This document shows, one piece after another, positions 17,043-57,791 of a stretch of DNA of 64,000 nt. Each line of letters opens with the position of its first letter. Position 1 is the stretch's first letter. This stretch comes from Sedimentisphaerales bacterium (GTDB lineage: Bacteria; Planctomycetota; Phycisphaerae; Sedimentisphaerales; SM23-30): positions 124,001 through 188,000 of the forward strand of contig JANQJS010000002.1 of NCBI GenBank assembly GCA_028281535.1, read 5' to 3'. The position numbers and the translations under genes were made by a program. A model generated the notes under the pieces. That model was not told where the DNA came from, made no database searches, and saw only the letters and a program-made list of their open reading frames with translations.

Positions 17043-18770
17043 TTAATCTGCATTTATTTCATCATTATCCTGTGTGACTCTGAGAATCTCTTCCGGTGTG
17101 GTTAGTCCCTCCAGGACTTTGCAAATACCATCATGACGCATAGAAACATGATCGTCTGAAGCGCATTTTAAAATTTGCTCAGTATTGGGTCTGTCTGCTA
17201 TGAGTTGACGCATCTGTTCCGTGATGCGAAGAAGTTCAAAAATACCAATTCGCCCTTTGAGTCCGCTGTTCATACACTCATTGCAACCGACGCCATGTTG
17301 CAGCATGGCGCCTGGTTCTATTCGAATCGAATTGTTTAAATTACGAATGAGTGATTCGTCAGGCTTGTAAGGTTGCTTACAGGAAGGGCAAATTTGTCGA
17401 ACCAATCGCTGGGCCAGCACTGCTTGAAGCGAACTACCTAACAGGAAAGGCTCGATACCCATATCAATTAAACGAGTCACCGCGCCTGCGGCATCGTTTG
17501 TATGTAATGTTGAGAAGACTAAGTGGCCAGTTAAAGCGGACCGGACAGCAATGTCTGCCGTTTCTCTGTCGCGTATTTCACCCACCATAACAATATCGGG
17601 ATCTTGTCGTAAAATATGTCGCAAGCCTGTTGCAAAGTTAAGACCTCGCTTAGCATTCACAGGCATTTGCACAATGCCTTCCAATTGGTATTCGACAGGA
17701 TCTTCAATGGTAATAATTTTTAACGATGGACTGAAAATTTTATTAAGCGCCGCATAAAGTGTGGTTGTTTTACCACTACCCGTGGGCCCTGTTACCAGGA
17801 TGATGCCATGGGATTTACTCAGGCAAGATGAAAATCCATCGAGTGTGAGGTTGTTCATGCCCAGGTCTTCTAGTGTGATTAACGCGTTTGATCGGTCCAG
17901 CAAACGCATCGTGACCGCTTCACCAAAAATGGTTGGAATAGTAGATACGCGAATATCGACTTTGCCATCATTTGTTTTAAATTCAATGTGTCCATCTTGA
18001 GGGACAAATCGCTCGGCAATATTCATATGTGCCATGATTTTTATACGAGAAATAATGGCTGCTTGTAATCGTTTCGGCGATGGTGCTCTTTCGACGAGTA
18101 CGCCATCGATGCGATATTTTGTTTTGAGTTCATGTTCAAAAGGTTCAATATGAACGTCACTGGCTCGAGCTTCAATGGCTTCCAATAAAATCAGATTGAC
18201 CAAATTGACCAGCGAAGGTTCGCGTGCCAATTCATGGAGTTTAGCCGCAGAGTAATCATCCGAGTCGGCTAACTCTTCCAATGATGGGGCTTCGGTCGGT
18301 GCCAGATTCTCGAGCATGCGGGCAACGTTGCTGCCATAATGTTTCAGGATGGCTTTTTCCAACGAATTTGGATGGCAAAAATGGCGATTAATTCCCAGGC
18401 CTGTGACCAATTTAATTTCCTCGATCGCATGCGTATCAAATGGATTTGACATCGCAATATCGAGATGGCCATTATTTTGACGGAGTGGAATGAGGTTATG
18501 CTTGCTGACCAGTTCTGCAGGGACTTGAGATATCGCTTTGGAATCGATTGTGATTTCTTCGAGATCCACTGCAGGAATAGATGCTTGGTGCGCCAATGCT
18601 TCATTCAGTTGCGATTGGGAAATCATACCCCGGCCAATTAAAATGTTGCCAAGGCTTCTATGCGTTTGTCTGGATTGATCTTGCAGTGCCTGTTCGAGTT
18701 TAGCCGAATCGAGGTAGGCGCTATCGCATAGAATCTCTCCAATTTTTTTTCGAATCACTGGAACAACCAT
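17043..18770 (-). CDS. gspE: Type II secretion ATPase GspE
   Basis: Hexameric cytoplasmic ATPase that drives the pseudopilus. In the 575 residues: MshEN-type N-terminal domains (about 1-150, with SLGNILIGRGMISQSQLNEALAHQ), Walker A GPTGSGKT at 328-335, the Walker B region RQDPDIVMVGEIRD at 388-401, and a four-Cys zinc site (C461, C464, C496, C499). MshEN domains in related ATPases bind cyclic di-GMP; whether this one does is open. First gene of the operon. The ATG follows GGGGAG at only about four bases, slightly short. Confidence 0.95.
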   Translation of the reverse strand: MVVPVIRKKIGEILCDSAYLDSAKLEQALQDQSRQTHRSLGNILIGRGMISQSQLNEALAHQASIPAVDLEEITIDSKAISQVPAELVSKHNLIPLRQNNGHLDIAMSNPFDTHAIEEIKLVTGLGINRHFCHPNSLEKAILKHYGSNVARMLENLAPTEAPSLEELADSDDYSAAKLHELAREPSLVNLVNLILLEAIEARASDVHIEPFEHELKTKYRIDGVLVERAPSPKRLQAAIISRIKIMAHMNIAERFVPQDGHIEFKTNDGKVDIRVSTIPTIFGEAVTMRLLDRSNALITLEDLGMNNLTLDGFSSCLSKSHGIILVTGPTGSGKTTTLYAALNKIFSPSLKIITIEDPVEYQLEGIVQMPVNAKRGLNFATGLRHILRQDPDIVMVGEIRDRETADIAVRSALTGHLVFSTLHTNDAAGAVTRLIDMGIEPFLLGSSLQAVLAQRLVRQICPSCKQPYKPDESLIRNLNNSIRIEPGAMLQHGVGCNECMNSGLKGRIGIFELLRITEQMRQLIADRPNTEQILKCASDDHVSMRHDGICKVLEGLTTPEEILRVTQDNDEINAD

Positions 18771-21308: not shown

Positions 21309-21958
21309 AATTTCCAACCCAATTAACGTTGTTCTTTTTTCGTCAGAGCCTATGGGTGACTCTGCTGGGGCTTGTCATTGCAATAGGATATGTTCTCTAT
21401 TTTCAAGACATTATTAGAACGAATAACGACTCATTTCATTTGTTTATATTGATTCATTCTATTGCGATAGCCGTCATTTTGGGACGATTTCGAAATGAGA
21501 ATTTTATTTATGCCTATACTCGTGGCTATTCGCGCAATCAATTATATCTTGCTAAAATGTCAGCGTCCATTCTGTCGGTTTTAACAGTTTGGTTACCTGT
21601 TGCGTTAGTGATTTGGCTTCCGATTCGATCTGTGATTCAAGATAAACTTTTTCAAAGTCCATATTTTCCATTCATGGAAACAGGGGAAAACATTCTACCT
21701 TTATTTTGGCTATGGGGATACGCATTACTACTACCTATGTTTCATTATGTCTGGATTCGACGTGCTCAGCCAATACCTGGCAGCAACGGGACGGTCTTGC
21801 TGGCGATTGGTTATGTGATGGTAGTAGTAATGCATTCAAACTTTTATAGGAATCCTGCCTGGCTTCAGTTGGTTTTAGTGTCTGTGACGACGCTATCTGC
21901 TCTAGTCCTGCTAATAGGTACCTGGAAGTGTCATCAAAAAATGGAGATGCAAAGATGA
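21305..21958 (+). CDS. ABC-2 type membrane protein
   Basis: A 217-residue protein with about six hydrophobic segments and few charges, placed directly after its ATPase with an ATGA overlap. It has no motif I can name beyond the general layout of an ABC-2 permease. The next gene again overlaps by ATGA, so the four genes form one tightly coupled unit. Confidence 0.75.
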   Translation: MKFPTQLTLFFFRQSLWVTLLGLVIAIGYVLYFQDIIRTNNDSFHLFILIHSIAIAVILGRFRNENFIYAYTRGYSRNQLYLAKMSASILSVLTVWLPVALVIWLPIRSVIQDKLFQSPYFPFMETGENILPLFWLWGYALLLPMFHYVWIRRAQPIPGSNGTVLLAIGYVMVVVMHSNFYRNPAWLQLVLVSVTTLSALVLLIGTWKCHQKMEMQR

Positions 21959-24387
21959 AAGAAAATTTAAGTAATTATGTTGTATATTTTCTTCTGCCGA
22001 TTGCTTTGGGTGTTATTAAATTAGTAATGACGTATTTAGAAAAACATGATAAGTCGTGTGCAAATAAAAAGCCTGGAACTAAATTAACGTATCGTGTTGA
22101 GTCATTTGTTTTTGTGTCGATTTGTCTTTTGTTTTCTCTTGTTGTTTATAATCAAAATAAAAGGACCTATTTGAATTTTGAGTTTTTGCATCCAGACTAT
22201 GCAGTGCTACATAAAATATTGCTAGTGGTTCTAGTTTTGTGGATATTGATATCAATCATTGTTTGTTTGAAAAAACGATTGGTGATAGCTTGTATGCTGG
22301 CGGTTTCAGGTTTTTGGTGTTATCTAGGTTTGTTTGTACCGGCTTTAGGAAATCGTGTGAATCCTTTCATGCAAGCCATGGCACCTGGTGATTCCTGGAA
22401 GCCTGTTGTTACTTATAGTTTTGAATTAGAAAATTCAAATGAACCAGTAGAGCTATTTATTAATGATGTGTCGTTAGGGTACACGCCGGTTAAAATAGCA
22501 TCGCAGGATTTGTATAATAAAGTTCCAGCATTAAATCAAGAGGAGGTTAATGCATATTATAAAAGAGAAGATGGTGGCTGTCGGTCCGTTTATTTAGAGT
22601 GGTATAAGTATGGGATGCATAATGGGGTTTATCGAAAAAGTTATTCGCAAATGTGTTTTTTTAAAATTAAAGTGAATGGCGAGTTTGTTGAAGATTATAG
22701 GATTAGACATAATGGTCTTCCAGGTTACCAGGTTCGGTATGACTATCAATATAACATTTTACTTAACCCTCGAGAAAAATGGCGACGTGAGCGTGATAAA
22801 AAAGATCGTTTGTTGAATTATGCTCGACTCAATGATTACCAGGTTGAGCCACAATGGTTTGACGAAATATCCTCTTTGGGTAATAGCGCTATTCTTGATG
22901 ATAATTGGAAATATAAGGATGCTCAGAAGTTCAGCCAGATGTATGATCAAAAAGCTAAGGAAACTTATGGCATTGGCCAAAAAGACCCGGAAGAGATTTT
23001 TCAGAAAATTTGTCGTCAGCTTGATGCCAAGGGGCGTTTTCATACACGTCAAATTGAAGCGAGAGCTCTCGATTTTGTTCATGATAAACTTCGATTTAAA
23101 CCCCTATTAAAAAAATACAAAAAAGCGATAAGCGGTTATGATCGGCCCTATTATTCGTATTCAAAAGGACATCGTTGGGGTGAAGTCTATTATGAATTTG
23201 ATCATACGCCTCGCGAAAATACATTGCATCATTATTTTTATACTGATCAATATCCCGCAAGTATGTCTGCGGTTGGGTATGTGTTAAGCTTGTGGGATAA
23301 AAAGTTCGATATTGAAAATAATGAAGAAGATAATCTAATTGAAGAAGCATTGTCTCCTCTCTTGATATATCGACATTCTCATGATGTTTATGCCCTTGAG
23401 CAGTTTGGTGGAGAATCGTATGCTAAGTATCTTGAGCGGCAGTTTCGCCGACACAATTGGGTGGTTGCAATGTCTGGTCATCATGCTGGTAGTGCCTCGT
23501 ATAAATATGGTGAGATGTACAACAGGTATTTTGAAAGCCTGATAAACTCACAAACGGAAACAGGTAAACGTTTTCGCGCAGGAAATCAAATGCGATCAGA
23601 GCAGCTGGCAAAACGTATCATTACCTCTACGCATAATATGAACAAGGATGTGCCTGGTTTTATATTTTATGATGACAAGAAAATTGCGATAAGGCTTTGG
23701 GAAACATATCTTCTTGCCGTTCAAAGTTCAAATCAAATTCAACATGAAAAATCAAGGTTGTTAATGGAATATTTAGCTAAGTGTGAAGATAAAGCAACGG
23801 ATAGAATGTATTTACAAGCCTGGAACAATATTTGTTATCAGTTTAAATATGGTTATTTAAATGTAAATTATTATATGCGAGATCATTCCATGGAACATCG
23901 TCTTCTTGTCGCGCGACATTTTTGGAACCAGATGCAGGAGTGTCATTTTGACAAGGAAGATCAAGAGGAAATTCTTAGTAAGATTACTATTGAGCTGGCG
24001 AGTTGTTCTGACCCAAATGCTTTGAGCGAATTTATGGATTTGGAAAAATCAGAAAAATATGTTGATCATCTTTGGTCATTTGTTAATTCTGATGCTGCGA
24101 TTAATCATCCTTTTGTTGAAGTGCTTGCTGGGCATCCCAATCCAGAGATGCGAGAGAGTGTTTTGGATATTATTGAACGGTATCCGGTGAAAAAATATCG
24201 TAACCTGCTTGATGAATTGTTGAATGATTCGGATGAAAAAGTCAGAAAACGAGCCAGTGAGGTCCGGGATTATTTGCAACAAATAAAAAATATGCCAGAG
24301 TGGGAGCCCGCTATGGCGGATGGTCAAATCAATGCCAGTCAGCCTCGCAGAATGATTAGCAAACTTATGTATGCTACCGATCAATAA
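21955..24387 (+). CDS. Large membrane protein with PEGA-like and HEAT-like segments, unknown function
   Basis: An 810-residue protein: four membrane helices (about residues 8-25, 49-66, 84-105, 108-128), then a large soluble part. Just after the membrane region, PVELFINDVSLGYTPVKI resembles a PEGA motif (surface carbohydrate-associated). The far C-terminal part (FVEVLAGHPNPEMRESVLDIIERY...LLDELLNDSDEKVRKRASEVRDYL) resembles two HEAT-type repeats. It ends in SQPRRMISKLMYATDQ, shared with the upstream HTH protein. The ATG at 21955 overlaps the permease stop, which decides the start. Probably a partner of the ABC exporter. No family recognised; the middle 400 residues are Tyr- and Arg-rich. Confidence 0.7.
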   Translation: MKENLSNYVVYFLLPIALGVIKLVMTYLEKHDKSCANKKPGTKLTYRVESFVFVSICLLFSLVVYNQNKRTYLNFEFLHPDYAVLHKILLVVLVLWILISIIVCLKKRLVIACMLAVSGFWCYLGLFVPALGNRVNPFMQAMAPGDSWKPVVTYSFELENSNEPVELFINDVSLGYTPVKIASQDLYNKVPALNQEEVNAYYKREDGGCRSVYLEWYKYGMHNGVYRKSYSQMCFFKIKVNGEFVEDYRIRHNGLPGYQVRYDYQYNILLNPREKWRRERDKKDRLLNYARLNDYQVEPQWFDEISSLGNSAILDDNWKYKDAQKFSQMYDQKAKETYGIGQKDPEEIFQKICRQLDAKGRFHTRQIEARALDFVHDKLRFKPLLKKYKKAISGYDRPYYSYSKGHRWGEVYYEFDHTPRENTLHHYFYTDQYPASMSAVGYVLSLWDKKFDIENNEEDNLIEEALSPLLIYRHSHDVYALEQFGGESYAKYLERQFRRHNWVVAMSGHHAGSASYKYGEMYNRYFESLINSQTETGKRFRAGNQMRSEQLAKRIITSTHNMNKDVPGFIFYDDKKIAIRLWETYLLAVQSSNQIQHEKSRLLMEYLAKCEDKATDRMYLQAWNNICYQFKYGYLNVNYYMRDHSMEHRLLVARHFWNQMQECHFDKEDQEEILSKITIELASCSDPNALSEFMDLEKSEKYVDHLWSFVNSDAAINHPFVEVLAGHPNPEMRESVLDIIERYPVKKYRNLLDELLNDSDEKVRKRASEVRDYLQQIKNMPEWEPAMADGQINASQPRRMISKLMYATDQ

Positions 24388-24394
24388 AATTTTG

Positions 24395-25729
24395 TTAAAT
24401 CTTATTTATATTTACTTCTTCGGAGTTTGTGTTTTGTTCTTCGGTGCTTTGTGAGGTACATTTTACACATACTCCGCTTAATAAGAGTTCACCTGTATTT
24501 TGAAGGCGAATTTTTGCGATAAGCTCAGGTGTAAGAATGGTTCCATTTTTTAGTAGCAAGTTACCAACGATATTTTTTAAATCCCTGGCGATGATCATAC
24601 CTTCTTTTAATTGTTTCGGTGATAATTCTACTTCATTTTCAACAAGTATTTCTTCACGACGTTGATCTAGGATGTCTAGAAAAGCATCCACAAGTTCTGG
24701 GTCGAACATTTTACCACTTCCTTGACGAAGTAAGCTTTGTCCTTCCTGCCACGATACCATTGTTGGCTTTATATTAGAGTAGATTTTTTCATCATAAGCG
24801 TTTACGAGAGTGATGATCCTGGAGATAAGTGGGATATCTTTTCCTTTTAGGCGGTCAGGGGTTCCTGTGCCATCATATTTTTCCTTTTGTGAATATACAC
24901 CTTTAGCGATAGTGTCAAATCCTCCTACCTGGCTTAATATATTGAAACCTGTTTGTGGAAATGGCACTGTTTTATTTTTCGCTTTAGATGCATTTGTTTG
25001 TTTTTCACCCAAAAGGATTAATTTTCCAATATCATGTAAGTGCGCGGCAAATTCTAAATCTCGTAATTCGGATTCTTCCAATCCCAACGACTTTCCTAAT
25101 TCTAATGATAACCTTGCAACACGTTTGGAATGAATCCCAAGAGAAGGACTTACTCCTTCTAGCATACTAGCAAGAATGGCAACAGTGTCCCTGAGTGAGC
25201 TTTCAAGTTTTGTGCGCAGTTTATCTAGAATATCCATCTGCAATTTGATGGCTTTGGTTCGTTTTTCAACCTTCTCTTCTAGCTGTTTATTCCATTGTTC
25301 TAGTTCTTCTTTTTGTTTTCGGGTTAATTCTTCTAGCCTTTTGTTTTCAATTTCTAAATTATAGGAGCGGACAGCATCGCCCACTATTTTGCGTAGATGG
25401 TCATCATTCCAAGGTTTCAATATGAAGTGAGTAATTTGCCCTTCATTAATCGATTTCATTGCCGAATTAAGGTCTGTTTGGCCAGTTAGTGTCATTCGAA
25501 TAGTATTTGGAGCCATTTTGGCTGCACGACTAAGTGTTTCAGGGCCATCCATACCTGGCATCCTCTGGTCACAAATAATAACCGCAATATCTGGATTATT
25601 CTCTAGAATGGTTAATGCTTCTTGACCGCTACTGGCTAGGTGGATGTTATAGCCATCTCGTCGTAAAAGTCGTTTAATAGCGCGTAAAATCGATTGTTCA
25701 TCGTCTATAGCTAAGATTGAGCCTGCCAT
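24395..25729 (-). CDS. Response regulator with degenerate HD-GYP domain
   Basis: A 444-residue protein: receiver domain (phospho-acceptor Asp54 in IICDQRMPGMDG, Lys in ILKPW), a long coiled coil (about 125-170) and an HD-GYP-type domain. The HD dyad is intact (AHLHDIGK, H232-D233), but the HHE motif reads QKE at 281-283 and GYP reads GTP. HD-GYP proteins normally hydrolyse cyclic di-GMP; loss of metal-binding His suggests weak or no activity. It ends with a short Cys pair (CVKC). Last gene of the H-NOX cluster, where HD-GYP regulators are a known output of NO signalling. GAGG precedes the ATG. Confidence 0.85.
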   Translation of the reverse strand: MAGSILAIDDEQSILRAIKRLLRRDGYNIHLASSGQEALTILENNPDIAVIICDQRMPGMDGPETLSRAAKMAPNTIRMTLTGQTDLNSAMKSINEGQITHFILKPWNDDHLRKIVGDAVRSYNLEIENKRLEELTRKQKEELEQWNKQLEEKVEKRTKAIKLQMDILDKLRTKLESSLRDTVAILASMLEGVSPSLGIHSKRVARLSLELGKSLGLEESELRDLEFAAHLHDIGKLILLGEKQTNASKAKNKTVPFPQTGFNILSQVGGFDTIAKGVYSQKEKYDGTGTPDRLKGKDIPLISRIITLVNAYDEKIYSNIKPTMVSWQEGQSLLRQGSGKMFDPELVDAFLDILDQRREEILVENEVELSPKQLKEGMIIARDLKNIVGNLLLKNGTILTPELIAKIRLQNTGELLLSGVCVKCTSQSTEEQNTNSEEVNINKI

Positions 25730-25765
25730 GATTTACCTCATTTTTTAAGTAACTTTATATCAGGT

Positions 25766-26620
25766 TTAGACAGATTTCCACAGTGTAATAATATAACCAC
25801 GTATACTGTTGTTATTTTTTAAGACACGAAATCGCCACTGAATATTGTTGCCTAGGTGTTCTAAATGTCCTTGTGATATTTCATTTTTTAAATTGTTTTC
25901 CGTAAAGATTATGTCGTGAAGGTGCTTTGGAAGGCCTTCTTTTGCTTCTGTGCCAATGATTTCAGGTGGTGCCATTTCCAGGAGTGGTTTTGTTTGGTTG
26001 TTTGCACTCACAATAAGCCCTGAAGCATCTATGCTGATAACAGCAGCGTCAACTAAATCTAACATTTCCTGTGCAAGTATCAGACCATCATTTGCATCGG
26101 TATTACGTTGTTTTAAGTGATGGTTCAGGATAACGAGTTTTTTGTTTTGACTTTCAATTTCTTCAACGAGTCGTTGGTTTTCCATTTTTAATGAATTTTG
26201 CTCTAATGCCCGTCGGATATGTAGCCTTAATTCTTCATCATTCCAAGGTTTTGCAATATATTTGTATATTGAACTATCATTAATTGCATTAATAATAGAA
26301 TTTATTTCAGAATACCCGCTGAGTATCATTCGGATCGTGTTTGGCCAACGGTCACGAACTATTTTTAATAACTCTGTTCCAGTCATTTCTGGCATTAATT
26401 GATCTGAAATAATTAAGTTGAATGATTGTTTTTCCATGAGTTCAATAGCTTCTTGTCCACTGTTCGCGATAACTACTTCATAAGATTCTCGTCGAAGCAG
26501 GCGTTTTAGGGCGCGTGTAATAAACATTTCATCGTCGACAAGCAATACTCGTGAAATTTCTTTTTCGTTTGTGGCTGTTGTTTCTACTTCATTTTGTGTT
26601 AAAATTGTTGTGTCACTCAT
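25766..26620 (-). CDS. Response regulator with coiled coil and PAS-like domain
   Basis: A 284-residue protein: receiver domain at about 22-140 (LLVDDE, LIISDQLMPEMTG, YIAKPW), a coiled coil (about 140-175) and a C-terminal PAS-like domain (LVDAAVISIDASGLIVSANNQTKPLLEM...WRFRVLKNNNSIRGYIITL). No DNA-binding or enzymatic output domain. Its receiver is close in sequence to that of the HD-GYP protein downstream. The start overlaps the end of the hybrid kinase gene by eight bases, implying coupling. Confidence 0.82.
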   Translation of the reverse strand: MSDTTILTQNEVETTATNEKEISRVLLVDDEMFITRALKRLLRRESYEVVIANSGQEAIELMEKQSFNLIISDQLMPEMTGTELLKIVRDRWPNTIRMILSGYSEINSIINAINDSSIYKYIAKPWNDEELRLHIRRALEQNSLKMENQRLVEEIESQNKKLVILNHHLKQRNTDANDGLILAQEMLDLVDAAVISIDASGLIVSANNQTKPLLEMAPPEIIGTEAKEGLPKHLHDIIFTENNLKNEISQGHLEHLGNNIQWRFRVLKNNNSIRGYIITLWKSV

Positions 26621-27968
26621 TTGTTATCCCTTCAATTTTTTTTGAGTCAATAGCGTCAAGTGGTAGCTCTATGCGGAAAGTAGTTCCTTTACCGACTTGA
26701 CTATTGACTGTGAGATTGCCATTGTGTGCTTGAATGATTTTGTATGATAGATTTAAGCCGAGACCTGTTCCTTTGCCCACTTCTTTGGTTGTAAAAAAAG
26801 GTTCATAAATACGGTCCAGATTTTCTTTAGGGATGCCACGGCCGGTATCTTCAATTTCAACCCAAATATTATTGTTTGCATGGCCGGTTCGAATCGTAAT
26901 GGTTCCGTGTGTGTCTATAGACTGGGCGCCATTGACCAGTAAGTTTAGGAAAACCTGGCCTAATTTCCCACCATAACATTTGAGTGCTGGAAGATCACCA
27001 TATTCCTTGACGATATTCGCTTTGTATTTTAACTCATTGGATGCTACGTTAATGGTTTTCTCCATCAATTCATTGATATCTTCTTCAGAGGCATCCGGGT
27101 TGTCTATGTGTGAAAAATCTCGTAAATCTGCAACAATTTTTCGTACTCGTTGAGTACCTTCGATTGACTCTTTGATTAAATCGGGAAGATCTGTTAATGT
27201 GTCTTCGATGTCTGTTTCATTTCGTAGAGCAGTGATTGTTTTCAATTGCTGATTGATTTTTGAAGGGTCATCTTGACATATTTCAATCAGTTTTTCATAG
27301 GCTTCAATGTTTTTGTGTATGTCTTCGATATAGTCTTCCAGTGAATTGAGATTGCTTGATATAAACCCGATGGGATTATTGATTTCATGTGCGACACCAG
27401 CAGCTAATTGTCCAATCGAAGCCATTTTTTCTGATTGAAGTAACTTAGATTGTTGTTCTTCAATTTTATTTCGCAATGTTTGTTCTTTGCGAATGCTCTC
27501 TTGTATTTTTATCACTTGTGTTTTTAATTTTTCATGATCTTTTTCCTGCTGCTTTTGTAAATTGGCAATATTAATGTGGGTTTTAACCCTTGCAATGATT
27601 TCTGTTTCATCAGCCGTTTTGGATATGTAGTCACTTCCTCCTACTTCGAAGCCTTTTACAATTTGCTCGGTTTTTCCTTCAGAGGTCATGAAAAGAATTG
27701 GAATGTTTTGAGTATTTGAGTTGTTTTTGAGAGTTTGGCAAACTTCAAATCCACTCATTTGAGGCATTTGTACATCACATAAAATTATAATAGGTTGTTC
27801 GATAATAGTTGTCTCAAGGGCTATTGTGGGGTCGGATAGCTCGACGACATTATAAAGATGTTTTTCGAGACATTTTCGCAATACTTGGCGACAAATATTA
27901 CTGTCGTCGAGGATAAGCACTTTAGTGTTTTCTGTTGTATGAATTGTGTTTCCTTTAGTGCCGTTCAT
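26613..27968 (-). CDS. Hybrid histidine kinase with N-terminal receiver domain
   Basis: A 451-residue cytoplasmic kinase: receiver domain at about 15-135 (Asp65 in ILCDVQMPQMSG), coiled coil (about 138-180), HisKA with phospho-acceptor His194 in AAGVAHEINNPIGFISSNLNSLEDY, and HATPase_c with DTGRGIP and GKGTGLGLNLSYKII. No membrane segment, so it senses a cytoplasmic signal or a partner protein. The kinase half is nearly the same as that of the gene immediately upstream. AAGGA lies eight bases before the ATG. Confidence 0.9.
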   Translation of the reverse strand: MNGTKGNTIHTTENTKVLILDDSNICRQVLRKCLEKHLYNVVELSDPTIALETTIIEQPIIILCDVQMPQMSGFEVCQTLKNNSNTQNIPILFMTSEGKTEQIVKGFEVGGSDYISKTADETEIIARVKTHINIANLQKQQEKDHEKLKTQVIKIQESIRKEQTLRNKIEEQQSKLLQSEKMASIGQLAAGVAHEINNPIGFISSNLNSLEDYIEDIHKNIEAYEKLIEICQDDPSKINQQLKTITALRNETDIEDTLTDLPDLIKESIEGTQRVRKIVADLRDFSHIDNPDASEEDINELMEKTINVASNELKYKANIVKEYGDLPALKCYGGKLGQVFLNLLVNGAQSIDTHGTITIRTGHANNNIWVEIEDTGRGIPKENLDRIYEPFFTTKEVGKGTGLGLNLSYKIIQAHNGNLTVNSQVGKGTTFRIELPLDAIDSKKIEGITNE

Positions 27969-27985
27969 AGTTATGTCCTTTATGT

Positions 27986-28981
27986 TTAGGCAGTTTCTTT
28001 CGTTTCTAGATGGTCTATTACTTGTTCTGTTGGCCCGGTAATAGGTAATTCGATTCGAAACGTTGTGCCCTGTCCTACTTCACTTTGAACAGTTATATTG
28101 CCTTGGTGTGATTCTATGATGTTATAAGATAGATTAAGGCCGAGCCCTGTTCCTTTGCCAATTTCTTTGGTTGTAAAAAATGGATTAAAAATTTTGGAGA
28201 GATTTTCTTGAGGGATTCCTTTGCCTGTATCTGTAATTTCGATCCAAACAATATTTTCTTTGTGGCCTGTGGATACGGTAATTGTACCACAATGCTCGAT
28301 AGATTGGGCGGCATTTATCAGAAGATTTAGGAATACCTGGTTTAATTTTCCGCCATAGCCATAGATCGTTGGTATTTTTTCAAAATTATTAACAACGTTA
28401 GCTTTGTATTTTAATTCATTGGATGCAACATTTATTGTTTTTTCGATCAAGTGGTTGATGTCAAGCTCTTCCAGGTCAGGTTTGTCTATATGTGAAAAAT
28501 CTCGAAGATCGGCAACGATTTTACGAACGCGATCTGTTCCTTCAATAGATTCATTGATTAGATCTTTGAGATCTTCAAGGATATAATCCAGATCGATTGT
28601 TTCTCGAACTATTTTTGCTTCATCAATCAATTGGTTGATCATGTTAGATGGTTTATTGCTAATTGATAAAAAACTTTCATAGGTCGTGATCATTTTACAG
28701 ATATCATCAATATAGGTTTCTAGAGAATTCAGGTTGCTGGATATAAATCCAATGGGGTTGTTGATTTCATGGGCGACTCCAGCAGCTAATTGTCCGATTG
28801 AAGCCATTTTTTCTGATTGAAGAAGTTGGGATTGTGCTTGTTGTAAATCTTGATATTGCTTTTGCAGCTTTTCATTAGCTTGATATAGTTGTCGAGATTT
28901 TTCTTCAAGAAGATGTTCTGCTTCTTGTCGAGCTTTTTTTTCTCGTTGTAGTTTTCGTTCTATAGCATCAAGATTATTCAT
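27986..28981 (-). CDS. Soluble histidine kinase next to H-NOX (HnoK-like)
   Basis: A 331-residue kinase with an N-terminal coiled coil (about 5-58), HisKA with His71 in AAGVAHEINNPIGF and a HATPase_c domain (DTGKGIP, GKGTGLGLNLSYNI). No sensor domain and no membrane helix. From family knowledge, such kinases beside H-NOX genes are inhibited by the NO-bound H-NOX protein. It begins ten bases after the H-NOX gene ends and has an AGGA ribosome site, which fits that pairing. Start ATG at 28981. Confidence 0.9.
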   Translation of the reverse strand: MNNLDAIERKLQREKKARQEAEHLLEEKSRQLYQANEKLQKQYQDLQQAQSQLLQSEKMASIGQLAAGVAHEINNPIGFISSNLNSLETYIDDICKMITTYESFLSISNKPSNMINQLIDEAKIVRETIDLDYILEDLKDLINESIEGTDRVRKIVADLRDFSHIDKPDLEELDINHLIEKTINVASNELKYKANVVNNFEKIPTIYGYGGKLNQVFLNLLINAAQSIEHCGTITVSTGHKENIVWIEITDTGKGIPQENLSKIFNPFFTTKEIGKGTGLGLNLSYNIIESHQGNITVQSEVGQGTTFRIELPITGPTEQVIDHLETKETA

Positions 28982-28990
28982 TACATTATC

Positions 28991-29536
28991 CTATGAAATT
29001 TTCGTTAATATAAACCGCTCTTTTATTCCTTTGCCATCAGATAGATCTTCACGTTGAATATTAATTGTTTCCTTAAAATGTTCTGCTCCTCCCTGGATTA
29101 ATCCTTCAGCAAGATCTCCTAGACATCTGGGAGATTCATAAATTAAGTTCATTTGGTCTGATGAAATGTTCTCCGTTGTAAAACGGGGTAGTTCTGCTTT
29201 TGGGTAGAGCTTTTTAACTTCCACATGGATGTAGCCATCGACGCTTTCAAGCACTTTAAAGGTCGAATCCATGTTTTCAACAAATTGCGGGAAAGCGGTA
29301 GAAAGCTTTTGAAATAAATATTTACCAAAAGCATATACCAATTCAGGGGCTTCGATTTGTGTGGTTTTGCTTAACTGTGTTACAAGTTGGATTATTTCCT
29401 GGTGATCATAAGTTCCCACTGCTGTATAAGCCCCTTGGGATTCAAGAGACGAAGATTCAATAATCTGATCTAATACATCCAGGCCAAATTGGTCTTCTAC
29501 CATCTCCATGAATTCAGTAAAAACTATCCCTTTCAT
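28991..29536 (-). CDS. H-NOX heme nitric-oxide/oxygen sensor
   Basis: A 181-residue H-NOX protein. It starts MKGIVFTEFMEMVEDQFG, has the proximal heme ligand His104 in GYIHVEVKKLYPKAELP, and the Tyr-x-Ser-x-Arg heme-propionate motif YESPR (Y133, S135, R137). Length and motifs fit stand-alone bacterial H-NOX proteins that bind NO through ferrous heme and control an adjacent kinase. I see no distal Tyr that would obviously favour O2, but the distal pocket cannot be judged by eye. It lies directly upstream of two kinases and two output regulators. Confidence 0.93.
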   Translation of the reverse strand: MKGIVFTEFMEMVEDQFGLDVLDQIIESSSLESQGAYTAVGTYDHQEIIQLVTQLSKTTQIEAPELVYAFGKYLFQKLSTAFPQFVENMDSTFKVLESVDGYIHVEVKKLYPKAELPRFTTENISSDQMNLIYESPRCLGDLAEGLIQGGAEHFKETINIQREDLSDGKGIKERFILTKIS

Positions 29537-29573
29537 TTTTTGTGTCTCCTAAGGCATCATTTAATAAATATGT

Positions 29574-30065
29574 TTATGTCATTTTTGGTAATGACTCGAA
29601 TTTGTTTTCGTTCTTATTTTCGATTACTTCGATAAACTCTTGAATGCGATTATACATTCGCAAGTGGCATTTGACTCGTGCTCGCAATTCATCTGGATAA
29701 AATGGTTTGGTAATATAATCCACTGCACCAGCATTAAGTCCACTGAGTTGTTGGTGTTGAGCTGAGCATCCGGTGAGAAAAATAATAGGAACTTCGTTTG
29801 TTAAATATTTACAGTACTTTAGTGCTTCCAATTTTCGTTGGCGTTTTTCTAATCGTTTGTATCGACGTAAAAAATCATATCCTGACATTTTAGACATAAA
29901 AACATCGACTAAGATTAGATCGATTGTTTCCTTTAAAGCGATTCGAAGGCCAATGCGACCATTGTTTGCAGTGATGACTTCAAATCCTGATCGTTTGAGA
30001 ATTCGCTTAACAGATATCAATGTAGATTGGTCATCATCAATCACTAAAATTTTTTCTTTACGCAT
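29574..30065 (-). CDS. Stand-alone response regulator with insertion in the receiver
   Basis: A 163-residue receiver protein (ILVIDDD, LILVDVFMSKMSG, FLTG, YITKPF). Between the phospho-acceptor and the next strand it carries an extra basic helix of about 20 residues (RYKRLEKRQRKLEALKY), not usual in receivers. A short C-terminal helical tail follows and there is no output domain, so it may act as a phosphate shuttle. It precedes the H-NOX gene by 38 bases on the same strand. SD AGGA before the ATG. Confidence 0.85.
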   Translation of the reverse strand: MRKEKILVIDDDQSTLISVKRILKRSGFEVITANNGRIGLRIALKETIDLILVDVFMSKMSGYDFLRRYKRLEKRQRKLEALKYCKYLTNEVPIIFLTGCSAQHQQLSGLNAGAVDYITKPFYPDELRARVKCHLRMYNRIQEFIEVIENKNENKFESLPKMT

Positions 30066-30200
30066 ACTATGTCCTCGTAAAATTTTACTTTTTGATGTGA
30101 TTCCTCCCCGGTGGGTATCACGTATTCCAGTTGAATTAGGACCGATAATCTGTTGCTATTCTCCTGGAAAGCTTTTAGTAAAATCGGTCTACACTATCTT

Positions 30201-30227
30201 AAAGTTAACTTTTAATCTTTAAGATTA
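30201..30227. promoter_or_regulatory. Two adjacent palindromes upstream of the response regulator
   Basis: AAAGTTAACTTT (30201-30212) is a perfect 12-base palindrome, followed at once by TAATCTT-T-AAGATTA (30213-30227). They lie about 136-162 bases upstream of the regulator start at 30065 in a 212-base gap, a plausible operator pair for the H-NOX block. No clear promoter hexamers are visible beside them. Confidence 0.35.
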
Positions 30228-30277
30228 TGATCTATGTTGGTCTTAGGTTTGGCTTTCTAAAAAGGGCCTTGTTTTGC

Positions 30278-30694
30278 TTATAACTTGATGCCTAGAGCCA
30301 TCCGTTCTTCTTCAGGTAGTTCTTCAATAAGATATCGGACGATATTTCGGACAATCTGGTTTTTCCATGGCTTAGTAATATAGTAACTACATCCGTGGTA
30401 ATATCCTTTTGTGAAGCGTTTGTCTGCAGATAGCATAATCACCGGAATGTGGTTAAGGCTTACTTCTGCTGCTAAACGGTCCAGCATTTCGTAACCATCT
30501 ATTTTAGGCATATGGGCATCTAAGAAAATAACATCTGGTTTTTTAAGCCAGGCATATGCAAATCCCATGCAACTATCATCGGTAGAAATAATGCGATGTC
30601 CTAATGGTTGTAATGTTCGCTTTAAGCTTGATAGAGTATTAAGATCATCATCGATGCATAGTATTGTTTTTCGATCTTGAATATTGCGTTTCAT
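30278..30694 (-). CDS. Stand-alone receiver-domain response regulator
   Basis: A 138-residue single-domain receiver (ILCIDDD, VIFLDAHMPKIDG, VIMLSA, YITKPW) with a short acidic tail. No output domain. It shares the minus-strand block with the HTH-receiver gene upstream (27-base gap) and the H-NOX genes downstream (212-base gap with palindromes). Likely a phosphorelay intermediate or a regulator acting by protein contact. Confidence 0.85.
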   Translation of the reverse strand: MKRNIQDRKTILCIDDDLNTLSSLKRTLQPLGHRIISTDDSCMGFAYAWLKKPDVIFLDAHMPKIDGYEMLDRLAAEVSLNHIPVIMLSADKRFTKGYYHGCSYYITKPWKNQIVRNIVRYLIEELPEEERMALGIKL

Positions 30695-30721
30695 CTCTTT
30701 CCCTCCAAATGTCGTGCCGCG

Positions 30722-31285
30722 TTATCGAGGTGCTAGCTGCATTACTTTTTCAATCAGCAGCTCATTTTCAAATGGTTTTGTAAGCACATCGTTGGCACCC
30801 ATTTTGATAGCTTGTAGAAGTTTGTTTTCAGGTAGTCCGGAAATAACTAATATCTTTAGGTGCTTCAGTCTGGTGTTATTTCTAATAAACTCTAAAACTT
30901 CATAGCCATCCATTCCAGGCATTTGTAAATCAAGTGTTACAATATTAGGTGCATAAGTTCCCATCAATGCTCCCGCTTCAAATCCATTATTGGCAATCAA
31001 CGTTTCAAAATCATTTTGCTTTAATTGACGCTGAATCGATTTTGCCATAGATTCATCATCATCAACAATGAGTATGCGGTTTGTGTTATCGGGCTTTAGG
31101 TCGTCAGGAATTGGCATATCAAATTTAGTCAAGAATTCGATAAAATCTTTTTTTGATATCCTGCGGTCACCTCGTCCTGGCAATTGAAACGCTTTTAGAT
31201 TGCCTTGATTAATCCAACGAATAATGGTGTGGTAGTCAACGCCGCAATAATCTGCAATTTGTCCTGTTGTAAATAGTTTGTTCAT
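30722..31285 (-). CDS. Excisionase/MerR-type HTH fused to a receiver domain
   Basis: A 187-residue protein in reversed order compared with common response regulators: DNA-binding domain first (LFTTGQIADYCGVDYHTIIRWINQGNLKAFQLPGRGDRRISKKDFIEFL, residues 4-52), then a linker and a receiver (ILIVDDDES, IVTLDLQMPGMDG, LVISG, VLTKPF). It is probably the DNA-binding output or an autoregulator of the signalling block, and it is the first gene of that block. A -35/-10 pair and a palindrome lie just upstream. Confidence 0.85.
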   Translation of the reverse strand: MNKLFTTGQIADYCGVDYHTIIRWINQGNLKAFQLPGRGDRRISKKDFIEFLTKFDMPIPDDLKPDNTNRILIVDDDESMAKSIQRQLKQNDFETLIANNGFEAGALMGTYAPNIVTLDLQMPGMDGYEVLEFIRNNTRLKHLKILVISGLPENKLLQAIKMGANDVLTKPFENELLIEKVMQLAPR

Positions 31286-31335: not shown

Positions 31336-31363
31336 AATATAAAATACAGTAATAAAATGTCAA
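31336..31363 (-). promoter_or_regulatory. Promoter of the HTH-receiver gene
   Basis: On the minus strand TTGACA (31363-31358), a 16-base spacer and TATATT (31341-31336), about 50 bases before the start codon at 31285. Confidence 0.6.
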
Positions 31364-31368
31364 ATATG

Positions 31369-31389
31369 TATAACATTATTTATGTTATA
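31369..31389. promoter_or_regulatory. Perfect palindrome in the divergent region
   Basis: TATAACAT and ATGTTATA are exact inverted repeats separated by five bases. The site lies just upstream of the -35 box of the HTH-receiver gene and about 60 bases before the divergent DUF2752 gene, so it could serve either. The HTH-receiver protein is an obvious candidate to bind it; this is inference. Confidence 0.5.
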
Positions 31390-54950: not shown

Positions 54951-55023
54951 TCCCTGGTAGCTCAATTGGTAGAGCGAGCGGCTGTTAACCGCTAGGTTAC
55001 TGGTTCGAGTCCAGTCCGGGGAG
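54951..55023 (+). tRNA. tRNA-Asn (GTT)
   Basis: A complete 73-base cloverleaf: acceptor TCCCTGG with CCGGGGA (one T-G pair), D-arm GCTCAATTGGTAGAGC, anticodon arm AGCGG-CTGTTAA-CCGCT with anticodon GTT, variable AGGTT, and T-arm ACTGG-TTCGAGT-CCAGT, discriminator G. No encoded CCA follows. It forms the left edge of an AT-rich stretch with integrase remnants, the usual place for integrated elements. Confidence 0.95.
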
Positions 55024-55088
55024 CTTTTTATAAGTTACGCTGAAATCGCTATTTGCGATTACCCACCAAAGTGGTGGCGCGGCTGTAA

Positions 55089-55388: not shown

Positions 55389-57545
55389 CTAGTTATTATC
55401 AATTACTATGTTTTCTGGATTTCCTAAATGTACATAAGCCATAGTTTCTACAAATGCGTACTTGTTCAGAATCAATGTTTCAACTTTATCTGCATCCATT
55501 TTAATTTCTTTTGATATATCTTCTAATAGTAAGTCAAACCAATTAGTTTTTTCGGTATTTATATTTATATTTGCATTCGCGTGAATGGTGGTGTATTGTT
55601 CCCATGACAAAAGCTTGTCTTTTTCTAACATACTTAAAAGTATATCGGTGACATAGGACATTTTAAAGAAACCTGATACAACTTCGAACCAAGAAATATG
55701 CCCTTCATATTTAATAGCTGCAGGAACAAATTCGTTAATTCTATGGAGTAATCGCACAATAAACACAGACGCTTTTATAGAGTCAATAGGAATCAGAGTC
55801 CCTATGACACTCCAAGCGCCACATCTCATTAAACCAGATGCAACAGACGCATGAGAACCTGAAATAGGATGCGTTAAGCATGCGCTCAATATAGCTATCG
55901 GTGGGATTCTTGCTTTTTTTGCTAAGTCCCAGACATCAACTTTGTTGTCACCGATTTGTAACCAAGCATGACTTTTTTCTCCTCCATGATTCCCATGGCA
56001 ATCGAAAATTATAATACTTCCGCTGAACTCGTTAAGACTTTTTATTAAATCTTCTTCATTGTCAACATCTTTTATTTTTATATCTAAAGAATTGAGAGCC
56101 CCCATTTTAGTGTAAAGATTTAAAGCTTCCTCAAGTTGGTGTTTTATTGGATCTTTATTTGAGAACGATCGGATAACTAAAATGTTGTTTAAAGAATTTT
56201 GATTAAATGAGATTCTTGCTCCAAAAAGAATTGAGGATGTAAGTAGATTTCCTGGTGTTGAGCAGATGCGTGACACTTTATGAGAAAACATTAATGGAAT
56301 CTTGTTGTATCTTAACCATTCAATCGGAAAGTCACATACAAATTTTAACTGTGATCGATTTTTAAAACATGCATCTAGTAATTCATTATCTAAAATATTT
56401 TTTAACGCTGAGTCATATTTTATATAAATTTTCATTAATTTTCTACTCGATGAGTTTGATTTATTAGTTGCTAAGGAAGACATTATGTTGATTAAATTAC
56501 TGTTTAACATAACGGCATGCGGTAGTCTGATGGCAGGGCAGAAATGGCCTGTGGCATATATTGTTATTAGGGTTGTTTGGAAATCTAATTCATCCTTCCT
56601 TTCTTTAAATAACACTTTGACATATGGGTCTTCAAGTGCTTGTATTAATGAGTCAGATTCTGTAGCATAGCTTGAATATCCTTTGATTTTTACTAAAACA
56701 TTTTTTATGAAATCCCTCTGGGGTTTTCCTAATTTACGATTTAGTGATTTCCAGAAATCACTTTTCATATCATAAAGAAACTGATACAAGGAGGGGCAGT
56801 AAATTATTGCGTCACTTTTTCTATATCGAGTGTCGACATTAATTTTATTTCTTATTGAGTCAATTTCATATACATACTTAAGCATTGAGGAAACATGGTC
56901 ATCTACAGTTTTTCCGACAAAAGGTACACTATCGTGAAATTTATAGCCATAATTATTGAGGATGTGTAGGTTAGGCAAATTTATATTGTGTCTTTCTTCA
57001 TCTAATGAAGATTCGATTGTATTCTGTTCAGTTTCTTTGCATTTAAGGTCATTTAAATACTTAGATATTTCACTTTCTGGTTCAAATGAAATATATTCAT
57101 CAATTTTATTCTTAAATATTTCTTTTATAGCAATGGGAGATAATTCTAAAAAATTGATTGTTAGTTCATGGTCAAATGATGAAATTAGTATTGGTTTATA
57201 TTTTAATTGGTTGGCAAATTTCAATACTGTATCTATTGTGTCTTCGTTACACCAAATAACTACAAATGCATTTTCTTTATATACGTTATACTCTAGAAAT
57301 AAGTGTTCTTGAAGAATTGAAACATTTTGGCTTGTACCGCACATTCTTACCAAGGCACGCTCGTCATCCAAAAGAAACATTTCTGCAATATCAAAAGGAA
57401 ATGAGGGGAGTATTGAAAAAATCCAAAAATGCTTGGAAATTACTTCTTTTGAAAATCCTTGAAAGAATGTATTGTCATCTCCATCGATGCTTGAACTTAT
57501 TGGTATAAGGTGATGGATTGTAGTTGTGTTAGATATATTACCCAT
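55389..57545 (-). CDS. CHAT-domain (caspase-like) protein
   Basis: A 718-residue protein. The C-terminal third has a CHAT cysteine-protease domain: SIIIFDCHGNHGG with catalytic His517 and PIAILSACLTHP with catalytic Cys556, then GAWSVIGTLIPIDSIKASVFIVRLL. The N-terminal 450 residues have no TPR or other repeat I can recognise and may form a sensor. CHAT proteases are often effectors in bacterial immune or cell-death systems, usually next to a sensor gene; here the neighbours are unknown or remnants. The ATG at 57545 was chosen over a TTG at 57560; neither has a good ribosome site. A+T-rich, in line with an acquired gene. Confidence 0.8.
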   Translation of the reverse strand: MGNISNTTTIHHLIPISSSIDGDDNTFFQGFSKEVISKHFWIFSILPSFPFDIAEMFLLDDERALVRMCGTSQNVSILQEHLFLEYNVYKENAFVVIWCNEDTIDTVLKFANQLKYKPILISSFDHELTINFLELSPIAIKEIFKNKIDEYISFEPESEISKYLNDLKCKETEQNTIESSLDEERHNINLPNLHILNNYGYKFHDSVPFVGKTVDDHVSSMLKYVYEIDSIRNKINVDTRYRKSDAIIYCPSLYQFLYDMKSDFWKSLNRKLGKPQRDFIKNVLVKIKGYSSYATESDSLIQALEDPYVKVLFKERKDELDFQTTLITIYATGHFCPAIRLPHAVMLNSNLINIMSSLATNKSNSSSRKLMKIYIKYDSALKNILDNELLDACFKNRSQLKFVCDFPIEWLRYNKIPLMFSHKVSRICSTPGNLLTSSILFGARISFNQNSLNNILVIRSFSNKDPIKHQLEEALNLYTKMGALNSLDIKIKDVDNEEDLIKSLNEFSGSIIIFDCHGNHGGEKSHAWLQIGDNKVDVWDLAKKARIPPIAILSACLTHPISGSHASVASGLMRCGAWSVIGTLIPIDSIKASVFIVRLLHRINEFVPAAIKYEGHISWFEVVSGFFKMSYVTDILLSMLEKDKLLSWEQYTTIHANANININTEKTNWFDLLLEDISKEIKMDADKVETLILNKYAFVETMAYVHLGNPENIVIDNN

Positions 57546-57791
57546 TTTCTGTTCAATCAACTATACGATGTGTTATAATTTATATCGATATTACCCTGCT
57601 CTTCAGACACAATTGTGATATAGCATTGAAAATTAGCAGGCAAGAGGTACAATAGTCCAGGCAATCGTAAAGCTAGTAGTAGAAAGCATATCGTTGCTGA
57701 ACCGGAAGAACTCACCATCTCTTCTCCTTATTTTTTGCATATCCCCCCTTCTCACAAAATGCTAGGGCTCAAAAATCACTTTTGATTTGTT

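Follow-up and report, generated by a model that had tools for sequence, protein, structure and literature searches.

A putative nitric oxide-responsive, branched two-component module with a degenerate HD-GYP protein in a Sedimentisphaerales bacterium

Our subject is a block of eight signalling genes at positions 24395–31285 of a 64,000-nucleotide stretch of DNA, hereafter the window, from contig JANQJS010000002.1 (positions 124,001 to 188,000, forward strand) of the Sedimentisphaerales bacterium assembly GCA_028281535.1, hereafter the source genome. We propose, with a probability of roughly 0.6, that the block, which includes a stand-alone H-NOX protein, is a nitric oxide (NO)-responsive branched two-component module of Planctomycetota, in which a degenerate HD-GYP protein acts by contact on a cyclic di-GMP (c-di-GMP) enzyme encoded elsewhere. 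As judged from sequence, control by NO over a branched set of regulators appears to be the best reading because the haem ligands of H-NOX are intact, the adjoining kinases are soluble and have no recognised small-molecule sensor, the receivers can be phosphorylated and relatives have kept the same arrangement.

Architecture of the block

The initial annotation described one NO sensor, two kinases and five receiver proteins on one strand with no other gene between them, and this description holds: all eight open reading frames (ORFs) run uninterrupted on the minus strand from 31285 to 24395 with the domains it named, no other plausible gene lies in between, and the opposite strand of the block has only shorter shadow frames. 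By transcription, the Pfam domain order is HTH_17-receiver, receiver, receiver, HNOB, HisKA-HATPase, receiver-HisKA-HATPase, receiver-PAS and receiver-HD_5. The first gene (30722–31285, minus strand, as are all that follow) encodes HTH-REC, a protein of 187 amino acids (aa) with an N-terminal helix-turn-helix (HTH_17, 42.5 bits) and a C-terminal receiver (Response_reg, 86.7 bits). Two single-domain receivers follow, REC138 (30278–30694; 138 aa; Response_reg 61.4 bits) and REC163 (29574–30065; 163 aa; Response_reg 84.7 bits), and then the stand-alone H-NOX (28991–29536; 181 aa), a probable haem NO sensor, whose HNOB domain (Pfam PF07700) scores 146.1 bits against a family cut-off of 25.5. Its probable partner, a histidine kinase of 331 aa (27986–28981; HisKA and HATPase_c), starts 9 nucleotides (nt) downstream, and next comes a receiver-kinase hybrid of 451 aa (26613–27968), in which an N-terminal Response_reg domain (86.4 bits) precedes HisKA and HATPase_c. 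The last two genes encode a 284-aa receiver-PAS protein (25766–26620; Response_reg 86 bits, PAS sub-threshold) and a 444-aa, NosR-like, degenerate receiver-HD-GYP protein (24395–25729; HD_5 80.6 bits, Response_reg 76.4 bits). The intergenic gaps, in transcription order 27, 212, 37, 9, 17, –8 and 36 nt, are operon-like, the sole sizeable one separating the two single-receiver genes, REC138 and REC163. An 819-aa protein on the plus strand (21928–24387), with a weak HEAT-repeat match alone, converges on the block, leaving 7 nt between the ORFs.

While the count of five receiver proteins is right, the 451-aa kinase adds its N-terminal receiver, bringing the block to six receiver domains. As read from an alignment of the six, all keep the acidic pair, the acceptor Asp, the Thr/Ser and the Lys. 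Genome-wide, we counted 59 receiver domains (E ≤ 1e-8) in 4.44 Mb, and the six found within these 6.9 kb compare with approximately 0.09 expected. This clustering is not chance, the Poisson probability being about 1e-9 per position, a hand estimate uncorrected for the number of positions and best taken as a rough guide, as regulator genes tend to cluster anyway. The initial annotation further suggested a branched phosphorelay. The anatomy backs the branching; a search for an Hpt domain, limited to the eight block proteins, gave no match at E ≤ 0.01, and we therefore reject a strict phosphorelay and prefer a branched multi-component two-component system.

Two paralogous kinases

The 331-aa kinase carries the motifs HEINN (at 71), NLLINA, DTGKG and GTGLGL, and both kinases have HEINN together with the N, G1, F and G2 boxes; HEINN fits the phosphatase consensus quoted in the excerpted text of PMC12570481. 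No Pfam sensor domain was found in either kinase, the hybrid's receiver apart. The two are paralogues (67.8% identity over 258 aa) that form a supported pair in the kinase tree (95/92), and the 36 residues flanking the phospho-histidine, as read from the alignment, are identical between them, which suggests that both kinases serve shared receivers. We found no support for recent gene conversion: of the 195 residues that the two share, 100 have the same codon, whereas codon usage alone predicts 85, and no stretch of identical DNA exceeds 23 nt.

The hybrid's receiver lies N-terminal to HisKA, the position of an input domain, with its phospho-site residues intact. This would also fit a serial cascade, in which the H-NOX-controlled kinase phosphorylates the hybrid's receiver and thereby switches the second kinase, the two acting not in parallel but as successive steps of an amplifier or integrator. 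The close relationship between the hybrid's kinase half and the first kinase is in keeping with such a cascade, as is the presence of the same hybrid at the same place in the related locus L117 (53.9% identity over 421 aa). However, this receiver stands furthest from the other five of the block (20–30% identity), and a second related locus, L197, has no hybrid, so the hybrid is not essential to the module. We consider the serial cascade possible, if somewhat unlikely.

Conservation of the block and its receivers among relatives

We read longer regions around H-NOX at 23 loci. Locus L117 (genome G374; same class, other family) encodes HTH-REC, REC, H-NOX, histidine kinase, REC-kinase hybrid, REC-PAS, HDOD and REC-HDGYP, that is, seven of the eight window genes in conserved order (43–54% identity) plus an HDOD gene. 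Locus L197 (genome G768, same class) shares a five-gene core with the window block, namely REC, H-NOX, histidine kinase, REC-PAS and a degenerate REC-HDGYP (L197a), followed by a second REC-HDGYP (L197b); HTH-REC, like the hybrid, is missing. Partial versions of the block are found in L118, L123 and L124 (same phylum), with L118 encoding HTH-REC, REC, REC, H-NOX, histidine kinase, a double receiver and REC-HDGYP. At the other 18 of the 23 loci, home-made hidden Markov models applied to mechanically called ORFs detected no REC-HDGYP next to H-NOX. Among 80 named loci, the same-strand run contains HTH-REC in none and an HD-GYP gene in two (L047 and L069), while in most of them the gene after H-NOX encodes a hybrid kinase whose receiver is C-terminal. 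The window block is the richest in receiver-bearing genes among all loci examined. The expansion of an H-NOX/kinase/HD-GYP circuit noted in the initial annotation is thus present, but it is not peculiar to the source genome, L117 being near-identical and L197 a smaller version.

Two further arrangements were seen at these loci. HDOD or receiver-HDOD genes recur beside H-NOX (L117:11463-12728, L123:5527-6735 and L036:4907-6004), an output that the excerpts of the circuit literature cited here do not discuss. In L033, L041, L101, L102 and L105, H-NOX is directly followed by a GGDEF-EAL gene, the direct diguanylate cyclase/phosphodiesterase partner type.

HTH-REC shares 47.5% identity with the leading gene of the L117 block and 53% with that of the L118 block; with the acidic pair, Asp, Ser and Lys present in its receiver, it is probably a phosphorylation-controlled DNA-binding regulator and perhaps regulates its own operon. 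REC138 finds its best similarity in the second gene of L118 (37.2% over 129 aa). REC163 lies directly upstream of H-NOX in the window and likewise in L117 and L197, and is 45.9% and 51.4% identical to its respective counterparts. The receivers of the receiver-PAS and HD-GYP proteins share 40% identity over 165 aa, or 45% when all six receivers are aligned, and the whole receiver-PAS protein has homologues in L117 (43%) and L197 (44%). The PAS label is based on the sub-threshold Pfam match and on conservation in these two loci; a single-sequence structure model of the protein was poor (confidence score, pLDDT, of 48) and was set aside.

Could the block instead be two touching systems, with HTH-REC and REC138 belonging to another pathway and the H-NOX module comprising the six genes from REC163 to HD-GYP? 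The sole sizeable gap lies exactly there, the L197 core does without HTH-REC, and 230 of 392 planctomycete genomes have a homologue of HTH-REC, far above the 41 of 392 that carry H-NOX. Yet HTH-REC is also the leading gene of the H-NOX blocks of L117 and L118, and the window, L117 and L118 proteins score 348–353 bits as compared to 255 for the next match, although this lead is inflated, since the model was built from these three. A split of this kind strikes us as unlikely.

A degenerate HD-GYP protein in a genome without EAL domains

The HD-GYP output of the initial annotation is present as a domain; motif alignments, however, indicate that it is degenerate and probably not an enzyme. At the site of the catalytic motif HHExxDGxGYP stands SQKEKYDGTGTP: HHE is replaced (SQKEKYDG), GYP has become GTP and the tyrosine is lost. 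The upstream metal-site histidine is likewise missing, while the HD pair and the distal Asp are kept; these residues are the presumed metal ligands of the family. The domain is probably non-enzymatic because both HHE and the tyrosine of GYP are lost. The HHE and GYP residues and the preceding histidine are also lost in the L117 and L197a proteins. In L197, the gene for the degenerate protein (motif SQEERFDGHGEP) shares four bases with the beginning of L197b, the start of which was chosen at the overlapping ATG, and L197b has intact motifs (HDIGK and HHERFDGKG). By pattern search, 13 of the 16 HD-GYP domains in the source genome keep HHE; the three without it are the one in the window, one on C36 and one on C20. 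The NCBIfam name for the family that the window protein matches (NF053512, NosR family) is phosphodiesterase, and with the HD pair and the distal Asp kept the protein might still be an active phosphodiesterase, through which the module would alter c-di-GMP directly; against this stand the losses shared by the window, L117 and L197a copies and the retention of HHE in most HD-GYP domains of the same genome, and we regard the idea as very unlikely.

The source genome contains five GGDEF ORFs, all with GG[DE]EF, and six PilZ domains, and c-di-GMP is probably made. No EAL domain was matched in this genome, which is 99.41% complete. Its breakdown of c-di-GMP, if carried out by a known enzyme type, therefore rests on HD-GYP, and the partner of the degenerate protein cannot be a direct copy of HnoB, the EAL-type regulator of the Hno system of Shewanella oneidensis. 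FIST domains likewise gave no match in the source genome, which implies that it has no NosP. Among the intact HD-GYP proteins of the genome, we found no clear orthologue of L197b: the best partial matches apart from the window copy (C26, C56 and C51) reach approximately 40–42% in the HD-GYP domain only.

H-NOX, a probable NO sensor

The proximal histidine and the YxSxR sequence constitute the haem motif of H-NOX, and the corresponding residues of the window protein, H104, Y133, S135 and R137, are intact. Across 25 aligned H-NOX sequences (the window copy and 24 of the 80 named loci), the first three are invariant and R137 is nearly so. The predicted structure (pLDDT 90.1) has as its best match in the PDB the H-NOX of Kordia algicida (6bde; TM 0.91), the nearest solved structures being the K. 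algicida, Shewanella woodyi and S. oneidensis proteins. With the haem-ligand residues intact and these H-NOX proteins as closest solved relatives, we think it very unlikely that the window protein senses redox state or oxygen rather than NO, as might be proposed from the response of haem-free Vibrio cholerae H-NOX to oxidation (PMC7108781, in excerpt). The source genome has one H-NOX copy. H-NOX occurs in 2 of 148 near relatives and in 41 of 392 genomes of the phylum, and a count within the class at E ≤ 1e-15 gave 21 of 397. In the H-NOX tree, the backbone of which is unresolved, L117, L197 and L196 form a group separate from the window copy. This speaks against inheritance of the whole block as a unit, and because the tree separates the window from L117 and L197, the history of the sensor gene may differ from that of the rest of the block.

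Upstream region

A promoter-like sequence, TTGACA-16-TATATT (31336–31363, minus strand; 11 of 12 consensus bases), lies 50 nt before the first gene; promoter-like sites show no excess in the region (22 seen as compared to 25.9 expected). Beside the –35 site is a perfect inverted repeat, TATAACAT-N5-ATGTTATA (31369–31389), a weak candidate for an operator. It is the sole perfect copy genome-wide; with up to two mismatches the pattern occurs at 8 places, as compared to 4 for a reversed control pattern, and within the window no further copy was found at up to three mismatches. The near-matches at four of the other seven places, those inspected, adjoin or sit in genes without evident link, and upstream of the L118 and L197 blocks there are inverted repeats of different sequence only. 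While the palindrome may serve as an operator for HTH-REC, the candidate is left as weak, since it has no counterpart upstream of L117 and the near-match genes are unlinked.

Proposed mechanism

In the mechanism that we favour, H-NOX would act as an auxiliary sensor, serving a soluble kinase that is itself sensor-less. Binding of NO to the H-NOX haem would shift the kinase/phosphatase balance of the 331-aa kinase, in a direction that we borrow from S. oneidensis, where NO inhibits the kinase (excerpts of PMC8738867 and PMC8846402); for NosP systems, the direction of the effect is described as varying by species (PMC12570481, in part). The kinase and its receiver-bearing paralogue would share a receiver-docking surface and charge the receivers of the block. 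HTH-REC would take the signal to transcription, probably including that of its own operon, while the NosR-like degenerate HD-GYP protein would contact a c-di-GMP enzyme encoded elsewhere, either a catalytic HD-GYP phosphodiesterase or a GGDEF cyclase, given that the genome is without an EAL enzyme. The lone receivers could be phosphate sinks or contact regulators, the receiver-PAS protein a further adaptor, and the receiver on the second kinase may link the kinases in series or give feedback. A narrower version, which we offer tentatively and think rather unlikely, is an EAL-free counterpart of Hno: NO, H-NOX and a two-stage kinase pair, the hybrid being gated by its receiver, would set a degenerate HD-GYP protein, and this in turn would switch a catalytic one by contact, both HD-GYP halves lying within the L197 block and the catalytic half of the window system elsewhere in its genome.

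Several observations weigh against the branched NO-responsive module. For the sensor, H-NOX is rare among near relatives (2 of 148), the second being a distant type, and the H-NOX tree places the window copy in a group (98/84) together with one Vibrio row and two rows from Porticoccaceae. As for the block as a unit, the 212-nt gap could split it in two. Upstream of the L117 block, a search for inverted repeats yielded 0 pairs within 40 nt. The PAS match (17.8 bits) is under the Pfam cut-off of 22.6, and any link of the hybrid kinase, the PAS domain or the lone receivers to NO is presumptive. On the output side, the HD pair and an E remain in the HD-GYP protein, so a residual or different activity is possible; its match to NF053512 is marginal (400.5 bits against a cut-off of 400, met by 0.5 bit), and the L117, L197 and L118 homologues score below the cut-off. 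Finally, no GGDEF or intact HD-GYP gene lies inside the block, which makes the c-di-GMP partner a guess.

Other features of the window

A type II secretion/type IV pilus-type ATPase with an MshEN domain is encoded at 17043–18770 (minus strand). MshEN is a c-di-GMP receptor type (PMC5013675, in excerpt); in the window protein KIG takes the place of the first RLG of the motif and SLG that of the second, which renders c-di-GMP binding doubtful. Polysaccharide-type genes lie at 33–42 kb. As outputs of the block, both these genes and the ATPase are suggestive at most, and we kept them out of the evidence. A CHAT-domain protein (55389–57560, minus strand) matches PADLOC BovA (Borvo) at 695 bits; its gene, directly after tRNA-Asn (54951–55024) at the start of a stretch of approximately 31% GC, probably has an anti-phage role and lies at a probable island boundary. 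A 903-aa protein (59453–62164, plus strand) combines an N-terminal calcineurin-like phosphoesterase with a C-terminal methyltransferase domain, an unusual fusion.

Comparison with known systems

As far as the excerpted literature goes, branched two-component networks that are under NO control and contain a degenerate HD-GYP protein are an already known kind, and the branching under NO control suggested by the initial annotation has been described in S. oneidensis: there, the NO input branches from HnoK/HnoS to HnoB, HnoC and HnoD, with HnoD an inactive degenerate HD-GYP protein that restrains an EAL phosphodiesterase by contact (PMC6335343). The window block shares with Hno a stand-alone H-NOX adjoining a kinase, two kinases, several response regulators and a branched output. 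Judged by description, its degenerate receiver-HD-GYP protein resembles HnoD in kind, and its HTH_17-receiver protein is a candidate counterpart of HnoC, a response-regulator transcription factor. Unlike Hno, it has no HnoB-type EAL regulator, its second kinase is a hybrid with an N-terminal receiver encoded inside the block, it adds two lone receivers and a receiver-PAS protein, and it comes from Planctomycetota.

The NosP/NosK/NosR system of Burkholderia pseudomallei, as far as excerpts describe it, offers a second parallel: a cytosolic HEINN kinase without a known sensor domain, an auxiliary haem NO sensor and a receiver with a degenerate HD-GYP domain. NosR is reported to be degenerate, with GTP in place of GYP (PMC12570481), its HG-GTP corresponding to HD-GTP in the window. 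The window sensor, however, is H-NOX rather than the FIST-domain NosP, and receivers are far more numerous. H-NOX, kinase and REC-HDGYP also share one neighbourhood in the planctomycete loci L123 and L124 and on the Vibrio coralliilyticus plasmid p319 (L034); unlike the window, L123 and L124 carry HDOD, as REC-HDOD, instead of PAS, all three are without HTH-REC, and p319 has an EAL protein and an Hpt protein nearby.

Within the open-licence literature, we found no paper naming both H-NOX and planctomycetes, nor this variant, which is planctomycete and EAL-free, with a receiver-gated second kinase, a receiver-PAS branch and, in a relative, a degenerate/intact HD-GYP pair. The NO-to-c-di-GMP circuits described in the excerpts of PMC6335343, PMC8738867, PMC8846402 and PMC12570481 are from Pseudomonadota and have EAL or GGDEF enzymes as output. 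If our reading is true, the same NO-to-c-di-GMP logic would here be built on HD-GYP proteins alone, and the degenerate HD-GYP protein of L197 with its adjoining intact sister, a pair that resembles HnoD/HnoB with HD-GYP replacing the EAL enzyme, would be a case in which regulation by contact is open to direct testing.

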